Of a stretch of DNA of 55,340 nucleotides, positions 16,284 to 47,689 are shown piece after piece. The position numbers were made by a program, and so were the translations under genes. The DNA comes from a virus. A model generated the notes under the pieces. It was not told the origin of the DNA, did not search any database, and saw nothing but the letters and a program-made list of their open reading frames with translations. Where the stretch lies: positions 1-55,340 of the IMG/VR virus record IMGVR_UViG_3300036852_000116, one strand, 5' to 3'. The number at the start of each line of letters is the position of its first letter. The first letter of the stretch is position 1.

Positions 16284-16578
16284 CTCGACTCTTCCTTGTG
16301 ATTTGTAAGATTCTTTGTTTGGTAACTCCAAACACCTTACCAAGAGTATCACTACCAGTTCCAGCCCAATACAACATAATCACTATCTCATCCCTACTCA
16401 GGAGTTGTCCACAGTGAGGGCAAGATAGTTTAATCAACCCTTTCTTGGGCTTGTAGTGAGCACAAGATAAGCAGAACTGACTATAGCTCTGACCTTTCTT
16501 CTTACCACATCTGGAACAGTTAGGATAATAGTAGTTTCTAGTTCCCGGCTTACGTAGTTTTAGTGGCCTTCTCCCCAA
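16210..16578 (-). CDS. Zinc-ribbon and helix-turn-helix protein
   Basis: A 122-residue protein starting at TTG inside the end of the polymerase gene. Two Cys pairs (NCSRCGKKKGQ, FCLSC) form a ribbon, a third pair (CPHCG) follows, and SDTLGKVFGVTKQRILQI resembles the helix-turn-helix of sigma region 4. That combination suggests a DNA-binding regulator or a polymerase-associated factor. The last 25 residues overlap the next gene and may be only a by-product of that overlap. Confidence 0.55.
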   Translation of the reverse strand: MGRRPLKLRKPGTRNYYYPNCSRCGKKKGQSYSQFCLSCAHYKPKKGLIKLSCPHCGQLLSRDEIVIMLYWAGTGSDTLGKVFGVTKQRILQITRKSRDENHHSSQTGRQNNSDVGVDEKRT

Positions 16579-19019
16579 TGATCACCTACCGTTATATCTA
16601 CTTGAATCGGGATGGTTGGTGTGTATCCGAAGTAGCTCTTTAAGGGCAGATTCTCCATTGTGGATTTAATTATCTCTGTGGCCGTCTGGACATAATCATC
16701 ATCAATTTCAAACAGCACAGCATCATGGACGTTGCCGATTATGCTCGCGCGTGATGTATCCAATTTCTGATTGAGGAGTACCATCGAAAGAACCGTGAGG
16801 TCCGAAGCAAATCCCTGAACCGGTGCATTGATAGCTTCTCTTTCGGCTTGACCTTGGAGGAACTCGTCTCCAGAATTGATTGAAGGAAGGTGTCGAACCC
16901 TTCCGATGGGCGAAGAGACATGTTGAAGGTTACGGACGAGCCGCCTTTGACGATCGTGCCACGGAAGTAAGGCTTTGAACTGGTTAAAGAAAGCCTTTCG
17001 ATACTCTTTGGCTTCCTCTTCAGAAACTTTGGTTTGGAATTTTTCATCAGCATATACCCTAAACTTCTTTGGTCCCATCCCATACAGGAAACCGAAGTTG
17101 ACTGCCTTCGCTAGCTTGCGTTCTTCCTTGGTGATGTCCTTCGGATCCTTACCAGTTATCTTTACCGCCGTTTCCAGATGGGCGTCTCGTCCTGATCTAA
17201 ATATTTCTGTAAGTTCTCTATCTCGAGACACCATTGCGGCAATTCTAAGTTCGATTTGGCTAAAGTCAGCCTCGACAAACCTCCTCTCACGTTTCCCTTG
17301 TGCAACCCGAACAGCGTTGGTTTTTCGATTGATACCGATGATTCCTCGAATAAGAACGTTCCTGGGCACCTGTTGCATGTTAGAACTAAGTCTTCCAGTA
17401 ACAGTACCCGAGAGATTGTATGAGGTGAAAAGTCGTGGTTTACCAGCAGCTGCAGTGCGGGCCAGCCAAGAACGACTGTAGGTCGATTCATACTTCTGCC
17501 ATTTCCTGAGCTCCATGAGAAGTCCCACAGCTCTGTGCTTCGTCTTGAGTTTCAGTAAGACTGCTTCCTTAGTAGATGGTTTTCCACTCTTCGGAGTATA
17601 TTCGATAACTGGCAGCTCAAGAATTTCAAAGAAGAACTTGCCTAGGAAGTTACCTGAGAACTTAATTGCTGGTGATCTTATATCCTCGGGAACATATTGC
17701 AACATCTTCTGTCTGGTCCGCTCGATGCGTTCTAAAATCTTCTCGTGCCTCGCGCGTAAGCGCCTCATATCTACTGGGAAGCCATTCGCTTCTATCTCAA
17801 CAAACTCGTTGCACGCTGGCATTACCAAGAGTTTGAAGATTCTTAGAAGTCGTGGTCGTTCCTTAAGCTGAGACCTAAAGAGATGGTAGAGTCGGAGGGT
17901 ATAATCAGTATCTTTCCCGTTGTAAGTTGCCAGAGGACCGAGGGGGTGCGGTCTTCTGAAGTCAATATCATCTTCATATGCGTCGGCACCCAAGAAAGTA
18001 CGCGCAAGGGGTTTAAGCCCGTTTGGTCGGTTCTCATCAAGAAGATGTGCTGCGAGTAGTGTATCGAAGGAGGCACGTAGATTCACTCCCTTCCTGCGCA
18101 TTCCTGACATATCAAACTTAGCGTTATGACCGATCATCTTCTTGCCTTCTAGAGCGACATTCAGAGCTGAGTAGACTTCCTTGATAGGAATGTCCCACTT
18201 CACCTCTGGATGTTCTAGGGCCACAACATAACTAGTTCCGGGTTCCCACGTGAAGGAACAGGTGAGAATGATCCACTTGGGATGCCAGACATGAAGTCCA
18301 CCTTTCTTCGCTTCCTTCCCGGATGCTTGATATCCTGGTCCCCATGACTCGATGTCGAAGGAAATTGGAGTATCCACAGACTCGATCAATTTTAAGAACT
18401 TGGCAAGGCTCTTACTAGATCGGATGATATAACTCTTGGTCTGTGGTCGTGTTTCTTCTCCCGATACTATCCGCGCAAGCGTGCGTAGGTCAGATCTAAA
18501 CATCTCCTCCCATGCTGGTGTACGAATAACCGCAGCTGGGTGGATGGTGGGGAAGTAAGAGATGCCATTCTTCTTGACTAAGGCTCCTCTCCTCCTCATG
18601 ATTCCTTTTACGCCTAGCGTTGCCTGTAGCGCGGCATTTCCAAGTGGAACCACGAACTCAGGCTGAACGGCCCCAATTTCATCCAGTAGGTAATGATTGC
18701 ATGTTCTGATTTCAGTCCTGGTAGGTGTTCGATTGTCCGGAGGTCTACACCTACAAGCATTTGTAACGTAAACACTCTCGCGGGGTAAGCCCACTTCGGA
18801 TAGTACAGCATCCAGATACTTGCCCGCCTTCCCTGCAAACGGCTTGGCTTCATCATCTTCCCTGTACCCGGGAGCTTCACCCACGAGCATAACCCTGCTG
18901 GGAACAGGCCCATCTCCCATAACGCAGACCGACTGCGCGGATAGATGGAGAGGGCATTCCTCGCAATTGGGATTGCGGTATGGCTCCCAAACTTTAAGTC
19001 GCGCATCTTCAGTTACCAT
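16560..19019 (-). CDS. DNA polymerase I with N-terminal family-4 uracil-DNA glycosylase domain
   Basis: An 819-residue fusion. Residues about 1-190 match family-4 UDG: Cys pair CEEC, VGEAPGYREDDEAKPF, AGKAGKYLD, CRCRPPDNRTPT with two more Cys for a 4Fe-4S cluster, and HPAAVIR. Residues about 215-390 are a DEDDy 3'-5' exonuclease (SFDIES, IGHNAKFD, YNGKDTDY). The rest is a family A polymerase: motif A ADFSQIELR, motif B KLAKAVNFGFLYG with Phe at the ddNTP-selectivity position, and motif C VHDAVLFE, where Ala replaces the usual Glu. The same fusion is known from phage SPO1. It should be the replicative enzyme of the phage. The start overlaps the deaminase gene by 11 bases. Confidence 0.93.
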   Translation of the reverse strand: MVTEDARLKVWEPYRNPNCEECPLHLSAQSVCVMGDGPVPSRVMLVGEAPGYREDDEAKPFAGKAGKYLDAVLSEVGLPRESVYVTNACRCRPPDNRTPTRTEIRTCNHYLLDEIGAVQPEFVVPLGNAALQATLGVKGIMRRRGALVKKNGISYFPTIHPAAVIRTPAWEEMFRSDLRTLARIVSGEETRPQTKSYIIRSSKSLAKFLKLIESVDTPISFDIESWGPGYQASGKEAKKGGLHVWHPKWIILTCSFTWEPGTSYVVALEHPEVKWDIPIKEVYSALNVALEGKKMIGHNAKFDMSGMRRKGVNLRASFDTLLAAHLLDENRPNGLKPLARTFLGADAYEDDIDFRRPHPLGPLATYNGKDTDYTLRLYHLFRSQLKERPRLLRIFKLLVMPACNEFVEIEANGFPVDMRRLRARHEKILERIERTRQKMLQYVPEDIRSPAIKFSGNFLGKFFFEILELPVIEYTPKSGKPSTKEAVLLKLKTKHRAVGLLMELRKWQKYESTYSRSWLARTAAAGKPRLFTSYNLSGTVTGRLSSNMQQVPRNVLIRGIIGINRKTNAVRVAQGKRERRFVEADFSQIELRIAAMVSRDRELTEIFRSGRDAHLETAVKITGKDPKDITKEERKLAKAVNFGFLYGMGPKKFRVYADEKFQTKVSEEEAKEYRKAFFNQFKALLPWHDRQRRLVRNLQHVSSPIGRVRHLPSINSGDEFLQGQAEREAINAPVQGFASDLTVLSMVLLNQKLDTSRASIIGNVHDAVLFEIDDDYVQTATEIIKSTMENLPLKSYFGYTPTIPIQVDITVGDHWGEGH

Positions 19020-34589: not shown

Positions 34590-35055
34590 AATCTTACTAT
34601 GTGATAAGCGTGGAACGGTTAAAGCAGGTCAAGGCTACAGTAAGTCGGAGCACAGTTAATTAGAAAGCTCCTTAAGGGATGTTTGGTGGACTTCGCAAAT
34701 TTATGGTCCCCACAAACCTTGGCAGTTCGATGATGGAGCCCTGTGGTACCCCCGGATAGTTCCCAGGATCTTCAAATCTGGAAACTACCCTCATTTCTGC
34801 AAATCGAGCGGTGATCAAGGAAATCTCGCAGCTTACTAGGGATCCACTGGAACTTAGTTTGGGGGGGTGCCTTCGGTACCGGAGTTTATCCGTCCCCTAT
34901 TAGTCTTGTCCGCGAGACGGCCAGACCGGACCAGACGGTCAACCTAGGATCCACTGGAAGATTCAAGAACCGATTTGACACGGTTGACAGGATGATATAT
35001 AATAGACTGGACCGTCGGACTGGACGGACGGACCAAAGTAGAGGAGGTGACCAAT
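34451..35055. other. Non-coding block between early operons
   Basis: No convincing gene is seen in this block of about 600 bases. It holds the octamer/hairpin cluster at its left end, two copies of GATCCACTGGAA (34841 and 34948), a TCCTTAAGGGA palindrome-like site (34669), a small CGGTACCG palindrome (34873-34880) and, at its right end, the promoter of the next operon. Short ORFs in it have no ribosome sites. Confidence 0.7.
34975..35003 (+). promoter_or_regulatory. Promoter of the small-gene operon at 35 kb
   Basis: TTGACA (34975-34980), 17-base spacer, TATAAT (34998-35003). A second TTGACA nine bases downstream is too close to be a -35 box. The leader contains CCGTC (35012) pairing with GACGG (35023), again a hairpin just after the predicted start. 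Confidence 0.8.
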
Positions 35056-40181: not shown

Positions 40182-40350
40182 GGTAGTCTTCAGGCTTAGG
40201 GTTCAAGGCTCAGACAATGAGCAGGAAGCAGTGGATATGGCGACAGATTACTTCTGTGGAGGTGACTACTATAGACAAGTGACTCAGATGGAAACAGAAG
40301 TCATTGAGGTGCGAAGTGTCCAAGAATCTGAGGCCACAGAGGCTCGATGA
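40174..40350 (+). CDS. Hypothetical 58-residue protein
   Basis: A small ORF (MHEVVFRLRVQGSDNEQ, then EAVDMATDYFCGGDYY and TEVIEVRSVQE) linking the previous gene to RuvB by overlaps at both ends. The beta-alpha-beta layout resembles small ferredoxin-like folds. No motif. Confidence 0.5.
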   Translation: MHEVVFRLRVQGSDNEQEAVDMATDYFCGGDYYRQVTQMETEVIEVRSVQESEATEAR

Positions 40351-41248
40351 TTTTATTGGGCAGGAGCATATCAAGGATGTTCTCCGAGTCTCCATCGAGG
40401 CGGCAAGGAAACAGAATCGGGTTCTGGATCATGTTCTGCTCAATGGCCCACCGGGATTGGGTAAGACAACTTTAGCGAGGATTATTGCTCGGGAGATGCA
40501 GTGGCGGATGCGGACCACAATCGGTTCGTCACTGAAGACGGCGAAAGATATAAAGTTCTTGGCATTGACTATATTGTCAGTGAAGAAGTCTATTATCTTC
40601 ATTGATGAAGTCCACAGGGTGGGCAAGCCAGCACAGGAGGTACTCTATCCGATACTGGAAGATGGAATCTGGTACTACAAGGTGGGCCAGTCAGTGACGG
40701 AAGCTGATCTAGGCCCATTAACTGTGGTTGGGGCTACTACTAACGCGGGTAGATTGGAACAGCCATTTGTGGATAGATTTGGTCTCCAGTTCCAGATGGA
40801 GTATTACACAGATGAGGAGATGTGCCGGGTAGTTCAGACTTCAGTGAGTAAGATAGGGATGGACATCGGGATGGAAGGTATGATGGAGGTGGTCAAGAGA
40901 TGCAGGGCTACTCCCAGAATAGCGAACCATCTGCTGATGAGGCTTAGAGATTACAATGTGGTCAGAGGTATGGAGCTCAACCGTGAGAATGTAGCAGGGA
41001 TACTGTGGAAGCGGTTCCATATTGACAGTATGGGATTGAATAGCCTCGATAGGCGGGTTCTTCGGGTATTGGACCAGGCTGTGGGTCCAGTCGGTGTCCA
41101 TACGATTGCCGACTTGGTGAATGAGGAAGCAGATTCTATCGAGTCTAGGGTTGAGCCATATCTCATGAGAATGGGAATGGTAGTAAGAGAGAGTAGAGGA
41201 AGGATGATTACTGATACCGGAAGGGCACACTTGGAGGCAGTAACTTGA
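40316..41248 (+). CDS. ruvB: Holliday junction branch-migration helicase RuvB
   Basis: A 310-residue AAA+ protein close to bacterial RuvB over its whole length: LRPQRLDDFIGQEHIK, Walker A NGPPGLGKTTLA, Walker B IIFIDEVHR, sensor VGATTNAGRL, arginine-finger region EQPFVDRFGLQ, CRATPRIANHLL (sensor 2), and a winged-helix end (VGVHTIADLVNEE). The GTG at 40316 follows GAGGTGCGAA. In bacteria RuvB is driven with RuvA and works with RuvC. Neither is evident here, so it may use host RuvA or act with the VRR-NUC nuclease. It fits recombination-dependent replication. Confidence 0.93.
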   Translation: MSKNLRPQRLDDFIGQEHIKDVLRVSIEAARKQNRVLDHVLLNGPPGLGKTTLARIIAREMQWRMRTTIGSSLKTAKDIKFLALTILSVKKSIIFIDEVHRVGKPAQEVLYPILEDGIWYYKVGQSVTEADLGPLTVVGATTNAGRLEQPFVDRFGLQFQMEYYTDEEMCRVVQTSVSKIGMDIGMEGMMEVVKRCRATPRIANHLLMRLRDYNVVRGMELNRENVAGILWKRFHIDSMGLNSLDRRVLRVLDQAVGPVGVHTIADLVNEEADSIESRVEPYLMRMGMVVRESRGRMITDTGRAHLEAVT

Positions 41249-41638: not shown

Positions 41639-42121
41639 ATGGCTAAGAAGGCGGCTACCAAAACCAAGAAGACTCGGAAGGCAGCGGCAGCTCCGGCTCC
41701 AGCAGCTTCTACGAAGAAGGCAGCGAAGGCTGAACGACCGGCTCGCAAGTACCAGTCCACCGCGGAAGTAGCTGCCGAGCTGAACGTGACTCCGGTTAGA
41801 CTTCGCCGAATCCTGCGGACGGATGATTTTGTCAACGATGGTGGCTATACTCGGTATGACATTGATCCGGCTACCAAAGCTCGGCTAGCTCAGGCTGTGG
41901 CTGCAGGAGCTGACGGTCGAACCGCGAAGAAGGGTAAGAAGGCTAAGGCCAAGAAGGCCAAGGTCGAAGAGGCCGAGTCTGAAGAGGTCCAGGAGGAGCT
42001 CGAAGACCTAGAGTCTGACGAGGACGAAGAGGAGGAACTGGAATTGGACGACGAAGAGGACGAGGACGAGGAAGAGGAGGAAGAGGAGGAAGAGGACGAG
42101 GATGAGGACGAGGAGGAGTAA
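41639..42121 (+). CDS. Histone-like DNA-binding protein with acidic tail
   Basis: A 160-residue protein in three parts. The first 40 residues are Lys/Ala-rich like histone H1 tails (KKAATKTKKTRKAAAA). Residues 40-90 form a helix-turn-helix-like core (TAEVAAELNVTPVRLRRIL). A second Lys-rich stretch (GKKAKAKKAKVEEA) follows, and then about 60 residues of almost only Glu and Asp. Such a basic-core-acidic order suggests a protein that binds DNA and is regulated by its acidic tail, or one that condenses DNA. It has its own promoter and a terminator, so it is made as a separate unit. Confidence 0.75.
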   Translation: MAKKAATKTKKTRKAAAAPAPAASTKKAAKAERPARKYQSTAEVAAELNVTPVRLRRILRTDDFVNDGGYTRYDIDPATKARLAQAVAAGADGRTAKKGKKAKAKKAKVEEAESEEVQEELEDLESDEDEEEELELDDEEDEDEEEEEEEEEDEDEDEEE

Positions 42122-43028: not shown

Positions 43029-43057
43029 TAGGTGGATCAGGCTTAGTTCCAGGCTTA

Positions 43058-43096
43058 GGCAGGTAGGCTTAGTACCAAGAGCTTGCCTGCCTTTTC
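43058..43096 (+). terminator. Terminator of the small-gene operon
   Basis: GGCAGGTAGGC (43058-43068) pairs with GCTTGCCTGCC (43081-43091) with two wobble pairs, followed by TTTTCTT. It begins 30 bases after the last stop. Confidence 0.8.
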
Positions 43097-43750
43097 TTGT
43101 AACTTACTAAAACTTCTCATACCCGGAATCACATCCTACATCATCTCTAGAGCCACGTTCCAGCGGTACAGCGGGCGCCAAACTAAATCCGCCGAATACG
43201 AGCTTACCTAACCTACTGGCTTAATATACCAAAGCTTCCTTAAGGGAACCGGCGGATCAACCTGAACTATAGCCAAGTTGTTTGGGTTCTGATGGGCTAG
43301 ATTGGGATGTGATTGGTGAGGCTCCCACTGTGGTTCTGCTGGTTTCGTGTTCCTGTAGAACCACTGGAACCTTCAGGTTATAGGTCGGTGGGATAATGAT
43401 CCACTGGAACCACTGGAACCGGAGTACTATCATGTGGATCCAGTGGAACCGTACATCATCATTACATCCGCGCAAACAGTTCATCATCTACTACATCATC
43501 AACATCTTAAAATCATCCTTAAGGGAACCTCCCAAACTTCTCAAAAATGTCGTCATGGTCGGTCAGGGTCGCCAAAGTCGCGGACGTAGGGTCGCCTGAC
43601 GTGCAATGTTGCGCCTGGTTGAACGGCGGACGTTAGGCGGACCATAGACATTGGCCCTTGACGGTCGGTCGCTGGCATGAGACAGTCCGCGTACGTCGAG
43701 TGTCCGGCACACGTCCGGATGGCGACGGTACGAACGGGAGGTCACGCGAA
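43097..43750. other. Non-coding block with repeated GATCCACTGGAACC elements
   Basis: No gene with a ribosome site is seen. The block contains CCACTGGAACC at 43361, the doubled element GATCCACTGGAACC plus CACTGGAACC at 43398-43420, a variant at 43434-43450 in partial palindrome (GTGGATCCAGTGGAACC), and two TTCCTTAAGGGAACC-like sites (43236 and about 43516). From about 43560 the sequence becomes strongly GC-rich and joins the cassette downstream. Confidence 0.65.
43398..43450. repeat. Cluster of GATCCACTGGAACC repeats
   Basis: Three copies within 53 bases, two direct (43398 and 43410) and one variant that reads GTGGATCCAGTGGAACC (43434). Further single copies are at 34841, 34948, 43361 and, inverted, 44646. 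All lie in intergenic blocks. Confidence 0.75.
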
Positions 43751-44149
43751 GTGACTGCACAGGACGCGACTCCGGTCGCGAGCGGCCCCACGGCCGCACA
43801 GGACGGCCCACAGGCGGCCCCGGCGCGCAAGCGCAAGGCATCGGCCCCCACGGTCAAGCGCATTGTGCTGGCGGCCGGAGAGACGGTCAACGCGGGCACG
43901 CTCGCTGCGCTGATCGGCGACAAGGCGGGAGCGCACCAGTGGGCGCTCGGGCGCAAGGTGAATGACAAGCGCGTCCGGAGCGTAGCGCGCGAGTCGATTG
44001 AGCGGCTCATGGCCGAAAACCGGACGGGTTACACCGCGCACGCTTACTCGGCCGCTGAGGCCGATGCCATCGTCGCGGTCATGCGGAGCGCCGGACGCGG
44101 AGCGCCGACCGTGAACGCGAACGCGCTGCGAGAGCGGGCGTCGAAGTGA
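43751..44149 (+). CDS. GC-rich cassette gene 1, hypothetical 132-residue protein
   Basis: GTG start with GGGAGG about 11 bases upstream. Ala/Arg-rich; the first 40 residues are low complexity with a basic patch (PARKRKASAPTVKR). A helical core follows (AGTLAALIGDKAGAHQWALG, SIERLMAENRTG, AADAIVAVMRSAG). The AETVNAGTLAALIG and RVRSVARESIERLM stretch may be a helix-turn-helix-like DNA-binding fold. Base composition is far richer in G and C than anywhere else in the window, which suggests recent acquisition. Confidence 0.6.
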   Translation: MTAQDATPVASGPTAAQDGPQAAPARKRKASAPTVKRIVLAAGETVNAGTLAALIGDKAGAHQWALGRKVNDKRVRSVARESIERLMAENRTGYTAHAYSAAEADAIVAVMRSAGRGAPTVNANALRERASK

Positions 44150-44322
44150 CCGCGGTCTGCATTGTGTGGGCATGCCCACGGTCCGCCGTTGATGGTCAGT
44201 GGTGCGAGCGCCACCAGCCACACGCGGACCCCATGAACGCGCCAGCGCTGGAGTTGGCGCAGGACACCGCGTACTTGCTCGCTGAGGGCATGACACTCGC
44301 GGAGATCGCGGCGCTCACGTGA
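44146..44322 (+). CDS. GC-rich cassette gene 2, Cys/His protein
   Basis: A 58-residue ORF starting at a GTG that overlaps the previous TGA. CIVWACPRSAVDGQWCERHQ gives C...C...C-x2-H like the first half of small zinc-binding phage proteins. The C-terminal half (TAYLLAEGMTLAEIAALT) reads like a helix-turn-helix fragment. Same GC-rich composition and coupled on both sides (GTGA). Confidence 0.55.
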   Translation: MTAVCIVWACPRSAVDGQWCERHQPHADPMNAPALELAQDTAYLLAEGMTLAEIAALT

Positions 44323-44522
44323 GCACGCTCACGCTCGTTATGCGGTCATTCGTGCGGCACGGTGCGCGCGGCGGACTCGCCCGCGTGCTGTTCGCCTTGC
44401 GAGCGTGGGCCGAACACGAAGCGGCGCACGTGCCAACGGGCGAGCACGGAGACACCGCGTTCGCGTGCTGGCCGCCAGACTGCGCAGCGCTCGACCGGGC
44501 GTACGATTGGTTGGACGCCTGA
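44319..44522 (+). CDS. GC-rich cassette gene 3, hypothetical 67-residue protein
   Basis: GTG overlapping the previous TGA. Ala/Arg/His-rich, helical (LARVLFALRAWAEHEAAH), ending in ACWPPDCAALDRAYDWLDA. No family. It closes the cassette and is followed by a strong terminator. Confidence 0.5.
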   Translation: MSTLTLVMRSFVRHGARGGLARVLFALRAWAEHEAAHVPTGEHGDTAFACWPPDCAALDRAYDWLDA

Positions 44523-44541
44523 CGGCGGCCTAGCAGACTCG

Positions 44542-44573
44542 GGGCGGGACTTGGCCTAGCGCTAGTCCCGCCC
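44542..44573 (+). terminator. Terminator of the GC-rich cassette
   Basis: GGGCGGGACT (44542-44551) pairs perfectly with AGTCCCGCCC (44564-44573). The loop itself contains a CTAGCGCTAG palindrome overlapping the second arm. No long T-run follows, so it may act as a general RNA stem or a weak terminator. Confidence 0.6.
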
Positions 44574-44876
44574 ACACTTGCCAGACAAGGGGATGTTTCG
44601 AACTCGGCAGTAGTAAGAAGTTTCCCGGTTGATCTGATCATTTCGGGTTCCAGTGGATCACCTAGGTGCCGTCTGGCCTGTCTGGACAGGTACTAATGGC
44701 ATCACGAGGCTCTAGATCGGGCCTTAAAGGAGCCCAGTGGTGCCCGCCGGTGTCTGGACCCACTATGACTAAGTTCTGATTATACAGGGCGTCCTGGAGC
44801 CTCGTAGATGTATATACGATGAAGTGTATCAGAAATAGTGAAGCTTACTGCCTAAACATCAGTCAAACAGCGCTGA

Positions 44877-45117
44877 GGGTAATTTCAGTTTTGTAAACTG
44901 AATCTTGATCGACCCACAAAGGGTTAGCGGTGATGAGTTTAGAGGCAGTAAGTTCTGGAACCTTGACAGGGATTCTGAGATGTAATATAATGCAACCAGA
45001 TCAACTTCACAATTCCATACCAAACTGGATCCACCCACGAGGGTGAGAATCGGCGAGTTTCTGGGTATAGCTTGCCTAACTTCTGGTTTCCAGGCCAGTA
45101 CAGGGTAATTCCAGTTT
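44877..45117. repeat. Two imperfect repeat pairs around the late promoter
   Basis: Element X: 34 bases at 44907-44940 and 33 bases at 45028-45060, sharing GATCSACCCAC, GGGT and GAGTTT. Element Y: AGGGTAATTYCAGTTT at 44877-44892 and 45102-45117. The pairs lie on either side of the promoter, as operators or RNA elements would. Confidence 0.6.
44963..44991 (+). promoter_or_regulatory. Late promoter of the packaging and head operon
   Basis: TTGACA (44963-44968), 17-base spacer, TATAAT (44986-44991). It shares GAGATGTAATATAATG with the promoter at 41252. It has the longest leader of all promoters here (about 150 bases). Confidence 0.85.
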
Positions 45118-45151: not shown

Positions 45152-45652
45152 ATGGACCCGAGCTTAAGACGTAAGCTTTATCTCGATCAACCGAGCTGCT
45201 TACACTTGGAAGGATACCGCATCCGCAACAAGTTCAGCTCGGTTGTCCTCTGTGGTCCATGCTACTTCCGCGATGGGTTTGAGGCCGAATATCCTACCCG
45301 TTTAAATACGCGTACGCGCGAGGGCATACTTGGTGGTCCATCACTGGATCCACAACTTTTAAACCATATCGGCGTTTCGGTGGGGCTGGTTCCACCTGAA
45401 CCTGGGCAATCGCTCAGAGAGTTCAGGACGCAGCGTTCCGTCCGCTCCCAGCCTTCACCGAAACGATTTCCATTCTCATCCGCACTCTGGCTTCTCATGG
45501 GAGTTCAACCTCCACTTGCTACGGTGTTAGTTCAGTTCTGTGAGGGTTACAACGAAGTGGAGATAGGGATGAAGATGGACCTCTCGCTCTACAACGTCAG
45601 TGATCGTCTGGGGAAAGCGGTTCGTACCGGGCAGAAGTTTCTGAAGGTGTAA
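45152..45652 (+). CDS. Hypothetical protein with sigma-region-4-like helix-turn-helix
   Basis: A 166-residue protein starting after GGAGGCAAA. The N-terminal half has Cys/His residues (PSCLHLEGYRIR, VVLCGPCYF) arranged like a zinc-binding site (C...H...C-x2-C). The C-terminal 45 residues (LATVLVQFCEGYNEVEIG, MKMDLSLYNVSDRLGKAV) resemble the HTH of sigma region 4 or LuxR-type proteins. First gene of the late operon. It could regulate late transcription or assist the terminase; the former is speculation. Confidence 0.55.
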   Translation: MDPSLRRKLYLDQPSCLHLEGYRIRNKFSSVVLCGPCYFRDGFEAEYPTRLNTRTREGILGGPSLDPQLLNHIGVSVGLVPPEPGQSLREFRTQRSVRSQPSPKRFPFSSALWLLMGVQPPLATVLVQFCEGYNEVEIGMKMDLSLYNVSDRLGKAVRTGQKFLKV

Positions 45653-45654
45653 GA

Positions 45655-46368
45655 ATGGTTCTATCAGCCGAACAGAGAAAGAAGAAGCAAGACAGGGCTT
45701 TTGCTCGTCGAGAGCGAGCGAAGCTGAACGGATCTGCAGTTGATGTAGACACTGGAGAACGATACGAGGTCGCAATTCTCGATAGCGATTCAAAGCGTAC
45801 GAAGCGCCTCGCTCCTGTGGTCAGTCAAAACCTGAAGACTCTTCGAGCACCCGTTCCTAGTAAGGTGCGTGAGAAGCTGGTTGTCAAGCGCGCTCGCTAT
45901 GCTGCGATGAAGACGCATATGGAGATAGCGGCTATTGCGATCGCTGCTGGAGCAACTCCTCGCATGGCCGCGCGGAAGGCTGGAGTCAACAAGCGACAGA
46001 TCAGCAAGTATATGCAGAACGCAGATTTTCGTGAGCGTGTGCATGAGTTTCAGGAACTACTGGGTAATCGCATCCTTGGGCGAGTGCTTAAGGAAGTTAA
46101 TCGACGGACGGAACCAGAAGTCATCAAGAAGATGGAGCTTCTCGACCTCCTACGCGTTGGAGATCGTGTGGGGCTAGGGAGAGGCAGTGGTAGTACAATC
46201 ATCAACAATGAGGGAACCATTAACAACTACGAGGCGAACTTCAACGCGCTCTTCCATGAGGGTGCCGAGGACTCGGAGCAGCTTTCTGACCCCTCGGAGG
46301 AAGGCGCTGATTTTCCGGAATTCAAACCTACGAGTCTTGCACTATCAGGCGGCGATTCACAAGAGTAG
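45655..46368 (+). CDS. terS: Small terminase subunit
   Basis: A 237-residue protein immediately upstream of the large terminase gene. A Lys/Arg-rich N-terminus, a helix-turn-helix-like core (THMEIAAIAIAAGATPRMAARKAG, KRQISKYM), a helical oligomerisation segment (FRERVHEFQELLGNRILG) and an acidic C-terminal tail are all typical of terminase small subunits, which recognise the packaging site and present DNA to the large subunit. The overlap with the large subunit start is expected. Confidence 0.75.
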   Translation: MVLSAEQRKKKQDRAFARRERAKLNGSAVDVDTGERYEVAILDSDSKRTKRLAPVVSQNLKTLRAPVPSKVREKLVVKRARYAAMKTHMEIAAIAIAAGATPRMAARKAGVNKRQISKYMQNADFRERVHEFQELLGNRILGRVLKEVNRRTEPEVIKKMELLDLLRVGDRVGLGRGSGSTIINNEGTINNYEANFNALFHEGAEDSEQLSDPSEEGADFPEFKPTSLALSGGDSQE

Positions 46369-47689
46369 AGCTCGCTTTCGGATCGTAGATGGTGGACGGA
46401 GAATTGGTAAATCTGTCATAGGTGGACGAGAAGCCTATGCACAGATGGTTGTTCCTGGTTCATACGTATGGATCGTCGGACCAACGATGGACCTTGCCGA
46501 GAAGGAGTTTCGTGTTGCTTGGAAGCTTATCGTTGATAAGGGCCTCATCCCTGTTAGACGCAAGTCTGAACGAGAACTATTTATCCAGTGTGAAAATGGT
46601 TCATTCCTCGAGTGCCGTTCTGAGGAAAATCCAGATCAGCTCGTTGGGGAAGGTTTGGATCTGGTTGTTCTTGCGGAAGCGGCCCGCCTCAAGCTACGCA
46701 CATTTGATCAGTACATCCGCCCAGCCATAGCCGACCGCAAGGGGAAGATCCTAGCGACTAGCACTCCTCGTGGGTTCAACTGGTTCTACGACTTCTACGA
46801 GCGTGGTCAGTCGGAAGAGGGAACATATCACGACTGGGAATCGTGGATGATCCCAACGTCGGAGAATCCTATCATTGGAGCTGAAGAAATTGCTGCTGCG
46901 AAAGCTACTTCGTCTCCTGAGGCGTTTGCACAAGAATGGGAAGCGAAATTCATCGCTTATGGTGGTCTTGTATTCCCCGAATTCTCGTACGAAACCCACG
47001 TCCGTGCAATCTCTTACGTCGGTGGGCTCGATACGGAACTATGGATCGACCCCGGTCACACAGCGCCATACTGCGTCCTGCTTGTCCAGATTACACCTGA
47101 CGAACAGGTGCTCGTGCTAGATGAGATCTACAAGACTGGTTTGACCAGTGATCGTATCATCTCTATTGCTGAAAAGAAGTGGAAGTCATTCATCCTCGAC
47201 GACTATGATCATCCCAAGGTGAAGGTCACAATCGACAGAGCAGCAGCGGAAGCTGCCGCCACCTGGCGCCTGCGCGGGTATGATGCTGGCGGAGACAAGC
47301 CGAAGATTGAACAGGGCATCGAAGTCTACCATATGTTCCTGAGAGATCCGATGCAGAGTCAGGAAGCCATCATCCTTCCGAACGGTGAAGTTGTTAGAGA
47401 TGCTTTGATTGTACCGAGGGTCTTCTACGATCCTAAGTGCAAGAACGTCATTAAGGAACACGGACTCTATCATTATCCTGATGAGACTCGTAAGAGAATT
47501 GATACTAATCCTACCAATAAGCCTGTGGACGTAGATAACCACGGGATGGATGCTGTTAGGTACGGGTTGAGAAATAGGTTCCCGACTCTGTTTAATGAAA
47601 GCCCCGAGAGTGAGAACGTCGTTTACTTAACTCCAGATGAGATGGGCATGGATATGGATTCCATCATAATCGAATCGAGTGAATACTAA
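46256..47689 (+). CDS. terL: Large terminase subunit (ATPase and nuclease)
   Basis: The packaging motor. Walker A is RFRIVDGGRRIGKSVIGG, Walker B is LDLVVLAEAARL, and ILATSTPRGFNWFY is the coupling motif C. The nuclease part shows ELWIDPGHTAPYCVLLVQ (first Asp), VKVTIDRAAAEAA (second Asp) and DVDNHGMDAVRYGLRN (final Asp), as in RNase H-like terminase nucleases. The exact start is unclear: ATG 46256, CTG 46307 (GGAGG upstream) and TTG 46337 are all in frame and overlap the small subunit gene. Length fits the family (about 450-480 residues). Confidence 0.93.
   Translation: MRVPRTRSSFLTPRRKALIFRNSNLRVLHYQAAIHKSRARFRIVDGGRRIGKSVIGGREAYAQMVVPGSYVWIVGPTMDLAEKEFRVAWKLIVDKGLIPVRRKSERELFIQCENGSFLECRSEENPDQLVGEGLDLVVLAEAARLKLRTFDQYIRPAIADRKGKILATSTPRGFNWFYDFYERGQSEEGTYHDWESWMIPTSENPIIGAEEIAAAKATSSPEAFAQEWEAKFIAYGGLVFPEFSYETHVRAISYVGGLDTELWIDPGHTAPYCVLLVQITPDEQVLVLDEIYKTGLTSDRIISIAEKKWKSFILDDYDHPKVKVTIDRAAAEAAATWRLRGYDAGGDKPKIEQGIEVYHMFLRDPMQSQEAIILPNGEVVRDALIVPRVFYDPKCKNVIKEHGLYHYPDETRKRIDTNPTNKPVDVDNHGMDAVRYGLRNRFPTLFNESPESENVVYLTPDEMGMDMDSIIIESSEY

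Follow-up and report, generated by a model that had tools for sequence, protein, structure and literature searches.

The GC-rich block at positions 43557–44575 of the analysed DNA (the whole 55,340-base IMG/VR virus record, hereafter the window) appears to be a long-standing trait that a phage family has passed on vertically. It occupies a fixed place, descends with the large terminase, has been turned around in place within the family, and has remained GC-rich while its silent sites came close to saturation. The reading that we tentatively favour, with a probability of about 0.47, is that of an old self-contained regulator cassette lying between the early and packaging operons, the composition of which is kept by selection.

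The block, the limits of which were set by GC change-point analysis, has a GC content of 69.3% versus 48.7% elsewhere in the window, and the richest other stretch of the same size reaches 57.4% (mean 48.7%, sd 2.8%). The GC-rich three-gene cassette described in the earlier note is thus confirmed, and all three of its ORFs exist. Third-position GC is 0.83 in P1 and 0.81 in both P2 and P3, compared with 0.35–0.56 in 15 long ORFs elsewhere in this phage, some of which may be structural, judging by size and place. The block has a ribosome-binding site, and both gene joins (P1/P2 and P2/P3) read GTGA, as had been noted. The closing hairpin is indeed perfect, its 10-bp arms matching without mismatch, and a 75-base piece containing it folds at −29.4 kcal/mol; no T-run follows it, and the terminator scan does not report it. 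The search for structured RNA gave a single weak Rfam match, outside the block and below the gathering score. The features of the region are as follows.

43057–43092, + strand: terminator-like stem with a T-rich tail, behind the upstream genes (terminator scan)
43358–43450, + strand: left-flank GATCCACTGGAACC-like repeats (site search)
43557–44575, + strand: GC-rich cassette, or island (GC change-point; same place in 26 of 35 relatives)
43557–43750, + strand: non-coding, GC-rich leader in which the short direct repeats AGGGTCGCC and GCGGACGT occur (sequence)
43658–43686, + strand: weak promoter-like TTGACG-N17-GACAGT, 5' of P1 (pattern search, no chance control)
43751–44149, + strand: P1, 132 aa, predicted winged-helix-like domain at about residues 40–115
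44146–44322, + strand: P2, 58 aa, accessory protein with a Cys/His motif, 39–40% identical to the second ORF of L002
44319–44522, + strand: P3, 67-aa ORF without a credible relative in the searched loci
44542–44573, + strand: hairpin closing the cassette (arms 44542–44551 and 44564–44573; a similar one in L002)
44646–44659, − strand: right-flank inverted copy of GATCCACTGGAACC (site search)
44963–44991, + strand: perfect sigma-70-type promoter sequence TTGACA-17-TATAAT (12/12), toward the packaging genes
45152–45652, + strand: orfW, conserved ORF and fixed anchor 3' of the cassette (comparison with relatives)
45655–46368, + strand: small-terminase-like ORF, by position (no family match)
46187–47689, + strand: large terminase ORF (phrog_2, E 2.4e-37), its start probably further in, since its first part overlaps the preceding ORF

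The terminator-like stem upstream and the promoter sequence downstream, of which L002 shows a similar version, place the block between two gene groups, although the number of terminator-like stems (1 found, 1.9 expected in shuffles) is not above chance. Gene content suggests that these groups are the early and late operons. The promoter-like pattern before P1 was matched in 8 of 20 leaders of the island family, in a pattern search with no chance control. Elsewhere in the window, a family A DNA polymerase with a uracil-DNA glycosylase-like domain at its N-terminus is encoded at 16560–19019 (− strand), and a RuvB-like AAA protein (Pfam RuvB_N, lid and RuvB_C; best PHROGs matches to clamp loaders) at 40304–41248. 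Shortly 5' of the cassette region, positions 41639–42121 encode a 160-aa protein that begins with a Lys/Ala-rich stretch and ends in a long Glu/Asp tail; its kinship with P1 is unsupported (hhalign probability 0.6%).

Eight GATCCACTGGAACC-like sites occur in the window at up to two mismatches, versus 0.55 expected. Six of them adjoin the block, two of the six being both strands of one site (43436–43450), and the right-hand copy (44646) is inverted relative to four of the five left-hand matches. Two more lie far from the cassette, at 34841 and 34948 (34841–34961). The earlier description of the block as lying between GATCCACTGGAACC copies therefore stands as far as copies on both sides are concerned. 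They do not resemble the duplications of a target site, since they are several and mostly inverted between the two sides, and since by eye similar sites are present in the close relatives of the window. The suggested search for target-site repeats likewise yielded no flanking repeat common to the family, and no empty site for comparison turned up.

Relatives were taken as 34 viral contigs found by their large terminase, together with L045. A GC-rich island is present at the same place, 5' of orfW, in 26 of these 35. In eight, the DNA stops short of the place and presence cannot be judged; among the 27 that reach it, the only exception is the distant L035 (46% terminase identity, 63% GC across the 13 kb compared). 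Two of the eight, L005 and L020, start with 50 bp at 70–72% GC that then falls, like an island edge, and at least four of the 26 (L003, L008, L018 and L032) start in or beside the island and offer a partial view only. Recurrence in 26 other contigs rules out an assembly chimera. Leaving out seven near-copies with identical or nearly identical match values (L003, L014, L015, L017, L029, L033 and L034) and adding the window gave 20 distinct islands; for charge and residue counts the limits of L016, L018, L032 and L009 were reset by hand, and those of L045 were set by eye. In the right-hand 13 kb of the cultured phages Wollypog and Yikes, no comparable island was found, the richest 600-bp window having 0.637 GC in both.

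A P1-like ORF was picked in all 20 distinct islands, with the backing of searches in 17 and by pattern alone in three. The window P1 finds 13 of the other 19 islands by tblastn (E ≤ 0.002). Further P1 genes were recovered by search in L045 (E 4.6e-7) and by profile in L008 (6.5e-9), and that of L025, found by scan, was confirmed with the L011 P1 (49%, 1e-16). The pattern-only cases are L027 (tblastn E 0.16), L007 (E 0.35, no profile match) and L028 (no tblastn match, and no profile match via its near-copy L029). Scans of the viral collection blind to the terminase, using two P1 sub-alignments, returned 12 and 5 loci, all on contigs of the terminase set. A host or prophage source was rejected, since neither the window P1 nor the terminase alignment finds a relative in genome contigs.

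The distances between P1 proteins agree with those between terminases across 17 genomes (Mantel r 0.763, with none of 5000 permutations as high; r 0.796 once the window clade is removed), and P1 has therefore been inherited with the genome. Both this test and the analysis of silent sites used 17 of the 20 islands, L007, L008 and L028 being left out as too divergent. At fourfold sites of conserved amino acids, pair identity in P1 was 0.381 versus 0.345 at random, with a GC content of 0.795 (0.67–0.92 by genome), while the terminase of the same genomes gave 0.330 versus 0.251 and a GC content of 0.480 (0.36–0.63); the pooled figure drops P1 pairs with fewer than five fourfold sites, and pairs are not independent. 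The silent sites have thus turned over while GC was retained, so the composition has its own equilibrium. To the earlier note the block looked recently gained, a view that the same block with the same composition in related phages was to refute; the block is found in 26 of the 35, its P1 follows the terminase, and its silent sites have turned over yet are GC-rich, which refutes recency.

At the left edge the mean GC content rises within 50 bp from 0.45 to 0.72, and at the right edge it falls from 0.71 to 0.45 (16 of 20 islands); these steps are partly given by construction, since change-point analysis had set the edges. Of 13 longer loci, 12 have their richest 500-bp window in the island, while in L023 another patch is as rich or richer. 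This second patch (L023:9681–10553, up to 73% GC) lies after the terminase and comprises an ORF of 290 aa, matching Peptidase_C39_2 below threshold (E 0.0028), and then a small ORF; it may be a true lineage-specific gain.

A local bias of mutation or repair, such as GC-biased gene conversion where the DNA recombines or is packaged, could also maintain a composition of this kind. The fixed place beside the terminase genes would suit it, as would the fact that coding and, in plus cassettes (those with P1 directed toward the terminase), also non-coding DNA is affected. However, it fits poorly with the steepness of the edges, even allowing for the way in which these were chosen, and with the AT-richness of the adjoining non-coding flanks at the same site, and we consider it unlikely.

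Direct repeats are abundant in the leaders: 273 were counted in 19 of them versus 66.9 expected, with nearly all of the excess in the plus group. They are significant (p < 0.01) in 9 of 11 plus leaders, one of which, L032, is inflated by a poly-C run near the contig start, and in none of the eight minus leaders, and they are lineage-specific. The leader of the window has 8 repeats of 7-mers versus 3.5 expected (p~0.06), and for L016 p~0.16. By eye, a CTAG-containing stretch (e.g., GCTAGTCCTAGGAGG) is seen before the ribosome-binding site in many islands of both orientations.

Such repeats, and the place beside the terminase genes, are what one would look for if the GC-rich DNA itself were functional, as a packaging, partition or origin site, with P1 and P2 being secondary. 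The longest contig, G001 (62.3 kb), stops inside P1, as a genome end might; nevertheless, six of the seven contigs of at least 55 kb (the window and G002–G006) run through the island, and the repeats are lineage-specific and missing from minus leaders. We regard this explanation, too, as unlikely. Contigs ending in or near the island are L003 (the longest, 62.3 kb), L005, L008, L018, L020, L022 and L032; they may end there because GC-rich DNA is poorly covered or because the genome itself ends.

P1 is directed toward the terminase (plus) in 12 of the 20 islands and away from it (minus) in 8. Three changes of orientation are needed on the terminase tree, at least two of them forced by well-supported branches; the cassette has therefore been turned around in place within the family. 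The sequences outside it recur on both sides of this divide: the right motif GGTGTTR..TAGAARATG, with up to two substitutions, is present at 12 of 20 loci (6 plus and 6 minus; 1 of 798 controls), and the left palindrome ATAAA-N-TTTAT at 9 of 20 (4 plus and 5 minus; 1 of 347 controls), while the clade of the window has neither in these forms. A looser right motif, with up to three errors, is present at 18 of 20 loci; because 52 of the 347 control windows match it too, the stricter form was used. A search for inverted and direct repeats between the flanks of the 20 distinct loci found exact matches of up to 15 bp, in single loci or clades only. Insertion or inversion by flanking repeats was thus rejected as a general explanation, as no family-wide repeat and no general inversion mechanism emerged.

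Both the flips and the kept GC would be explained if recombination with GC-rich homologues of a common pool had replaced an old cassette again and again, and the variability of the second gene agrees with this; by eye, P1 is followed in 14 of 20 islands by a further small ORF that has a CxxC-like or Cys/His motif. On the other hand, P1 distances mirror those of the terminase, and no source of P1 was found in genome contigs (searched with the window P1) or among viral contigs beyond the family, nor in cultured phages apart from a single match of the L032 P1 at E 0.8. Replacement from a pool is thus rather unlikely.

The P1 protein is probably a small DNA-binding protein, as the earlier note had suspected for the cassette, judging by its mostly basic character and the winged-helix-like model. 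Lysines and arginines outnumber aspartates and glutamates in the window P1 (20 versus 11) and in 19 of 20 P1 proteins, the exception being L031, and Arg76, Arg80, His97 and Tyr99 are invariant across all 19 sequences of the P1 alignment A1. AlphaFold models for two clades had mean pLDDT values of 68.5 and 75.6, and for both the top VIA-align match was the RacA DNA-binding domain (Z 6.3 each; 66 residues at 3.1 Å for the first model and 58 at 2.7 Å for the second). Next came, for the first model, the 4r24 chain of a Bacillus subtilis nitrogen regulator (Z 6.2), which we take to be GlnR or TnrA, followed by CarH and CarA and, for the second, GlnR, BmrR and CarH. These fold matches are weak, all with Z under 8 and the other chains lower than RacA or level with it, and unrelated chains score nearly as high (the Rv1264 cyclase regulatory domain, Z 5.1–5.6; calmodulin, 5.0). 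Foldseek gave nothing under E 0.001 for either model, with RacA missing from the list of the second, and the BFVD structure search with P1 returned nothing significant. A MerR-type winged helix is therefore a plausible prediction for P1.

Sequence searches bear out the earlier remark that no family is recognised: the three window proteins have no significant match in Pfam or PHROGs (best E 0.21 and 0.031, respectively). A PDB sequence search with P1 gave chance-like matches only. For 16 P1 members, the Pfam matches listed at E 0.5 include none of MerR type, and no Lsr2 or H-NS profile is among the Pfam and PHROGs matches listed. Four of 16 P1 proteins match phrog_908 (best E 1.9e-4), a family of function not known and thus uninformative. 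The proposed protein comparison recovered relatives of P1 at the island place and of P2 in L002, and none that is credible for P3, the best other tblastn match of which covers 21 residues elsewhere in L003 (E 0.011).

One could hypothesise that the phage sets one transcription unit apart by base composition: P1 would itself be a phage nucleoid protein or silencer, coating the AT-richer phage DNA or rivalling an AT-seeking host silencer, and its own gene would be kept GC-rich so as to be the only one exempt from silencing and the first read on entry. AT-richer DNA precedes P1 in several minus cassettes, which disfavours a strict rule of promoter exemption; we consider this role improbable.

To avoid the partial circularity of the GC content of leaders within called islands (mean 0.69 in 14 of 20), which were chosen for GC, a fixed measure of 100 bp 5' of P1 was used in its place. 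It gives a mean GC content of 0.677 in 11 plus cassettes (0.65 in the window) versus 0.574 in 8 minus cassettes; the lowest values, 0.44 in L009 and 0.46 in L008, are both from minus cassettes, and L018 offers only 64 bp. Since the upstream DNA is AT-richer in minus cassettes, a GC-rich promoter is not a family-wide rule, and the GC-richness goes beyond codons, yet not always into the DNA before P1. Adaptation of codons alone, with GC-rich codons serving strong translation in a GC-rich host, would account for third-position GC of 0.81–0.83 and for minus cassettes in which the upstream DNA is poorer in GC than the genes. It is nonetheless very unlikely, because the non-coding DNA upstream in plus cassettes is nearly as GC-rich as the gene and the other long ORFs of the phage stay at 0.35–0.56. 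AT runs of four or more are rarer than under synonymous shuffling in P1 genes (12 versus 23.6) and in the terminase (428 versus 549), while runs of five or more in P1 genes (2 versus 2.6) do not differ from the shuffle; this avoidance weakly supports an escape from silencing, the terminase showing the same less strongly.

Phage morons are autonomous accessory gene units of deviant composition, and the cassette resembles them in its promoter-like site, its closing hairpin, its place between operons and a composition unlike that of its neighbours. In contrast to morons, it is not sporadic, descends with the terminase, has held its composition near saturation and has been turned in place. What survives of the moron suggested in the earlier note is a self-contained unit that deviates in composition, has a promoter-like site and is closed by a hairpin; the recent gain does not. 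A recent moron from a GC-rich source, not yet ameliorated, is scarcely credible: deviant composition, promoter-like site, closing hairpin and missing family match are what it would show, but the shared place in relatives, the agreement of P1 with the terminase and the near-saturated silent sites contradict it.

Several known systems offer partial parallels, cited here from excerpts of the respective reports. Streptomyces phages of the BE cluster carry lsr2 in a GC-richer terminal repeat (54.4% versus 47.0%), and thus likewise have a gene for a DNA-binding protein in a GC-richer part of a lower-GC phage genome (PMC8612146). That region is about 12 kb long and is ascribed to block transfer by its authors (PMC8612146), whereas the cassette measures about 0.5–1 kb, lies some 20 points above its surroundings, encodes an unrelated protein, is family-wide and is inverted in place. 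The Lsr2-like CgpS, according to the excerpted account, acts where the GC content of the DNA drops (PMC7002338). The small MerR-like protein BldC is described as binding direct repeats head to tail (PMC5859096). P1 would share with BldC and the RacA domain a small winged-helix-like domain and, in plus cassettes, direct repeats upstream (PMC5859096), but it shows no sequence kinship to them in Pfam or PDB searches, and many P1 proteins have an Ala/Pro/Lys-rich tail, unlike BldC and RacA. The repeats of BldC, as excerpted, are AT-rich with a C-G, unlike those of the cassette (PMC5859096). Mycobacteriophage Alexphander gp94 is reported as a phage protein with a MerR-type winged helix, which for P1 is predicted; lytic growth depends on this protein, a binder of double-stranded DNA (PMC11242194). 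In contrast to P1, it has 228 aa, an N-terminal DinB-like domain and a C-terminal helix-turn-helix, and the excerpt of that report mentions no composition island (PMC11242194).

Under the favoured reading of a regulator cassette with selected composition, the cassette would form its own transcription unit in the non-coding stretch between the upstream gene group and the packaging genes. P1 would be made early and would act as a regulator of the early-to-late switch or as an organiser of the phage DNA, its targets being most likely the repeats of its own leader and, probably, also the control region in the flanks; head-to-tail binding of direct repeats in the manner of BldC is, by analogy, our favoured candidate model. 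The GC-richness would be held by selection, the likeliest aim being to keep the unit readable while AT-seeking nucleoid proteins of the host silence the phage DNA; that the host of this phage has such a silencer is a guess. The weakness of the fold matches, the AT-richer upstream DNA of minus cassettes, the missing repeats in minus leaders and the three pattern-only P1 genes weigh against this reading. Among 1166 cultured phage records with terminase relatives, the best 20 are Arthrobacter, Gordonia, Microbacterium and Mycobacterium phages at 31–33% identity, while Vibrio and Salmonella phages are commonest overall, so that terminase similarity gives only a hint of an actinobacterial host. It is because of this hint, together with the CgpS and BE-phage precedents, that selection for a silencing-proof unit is favoured.

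Among the titles and abstract openings listed by searches of one open-access library, no family-wide, composition-held, invertible GC-rich phage cassette was found described. A step in composition is usually taken as a mark of recent transfer; here it appears to be old and inherited within a phage family, and that usual inference calls for caution. With one unit at one site, in both orientations and with near-saturated silent sites, the family provides a natural case for asking why a composition is kept apart from that of its surroundings. Escape from silencing, if true, would be a simple counter-strategy of phages, to be sought in low-GC phages of GC-rich hosts.
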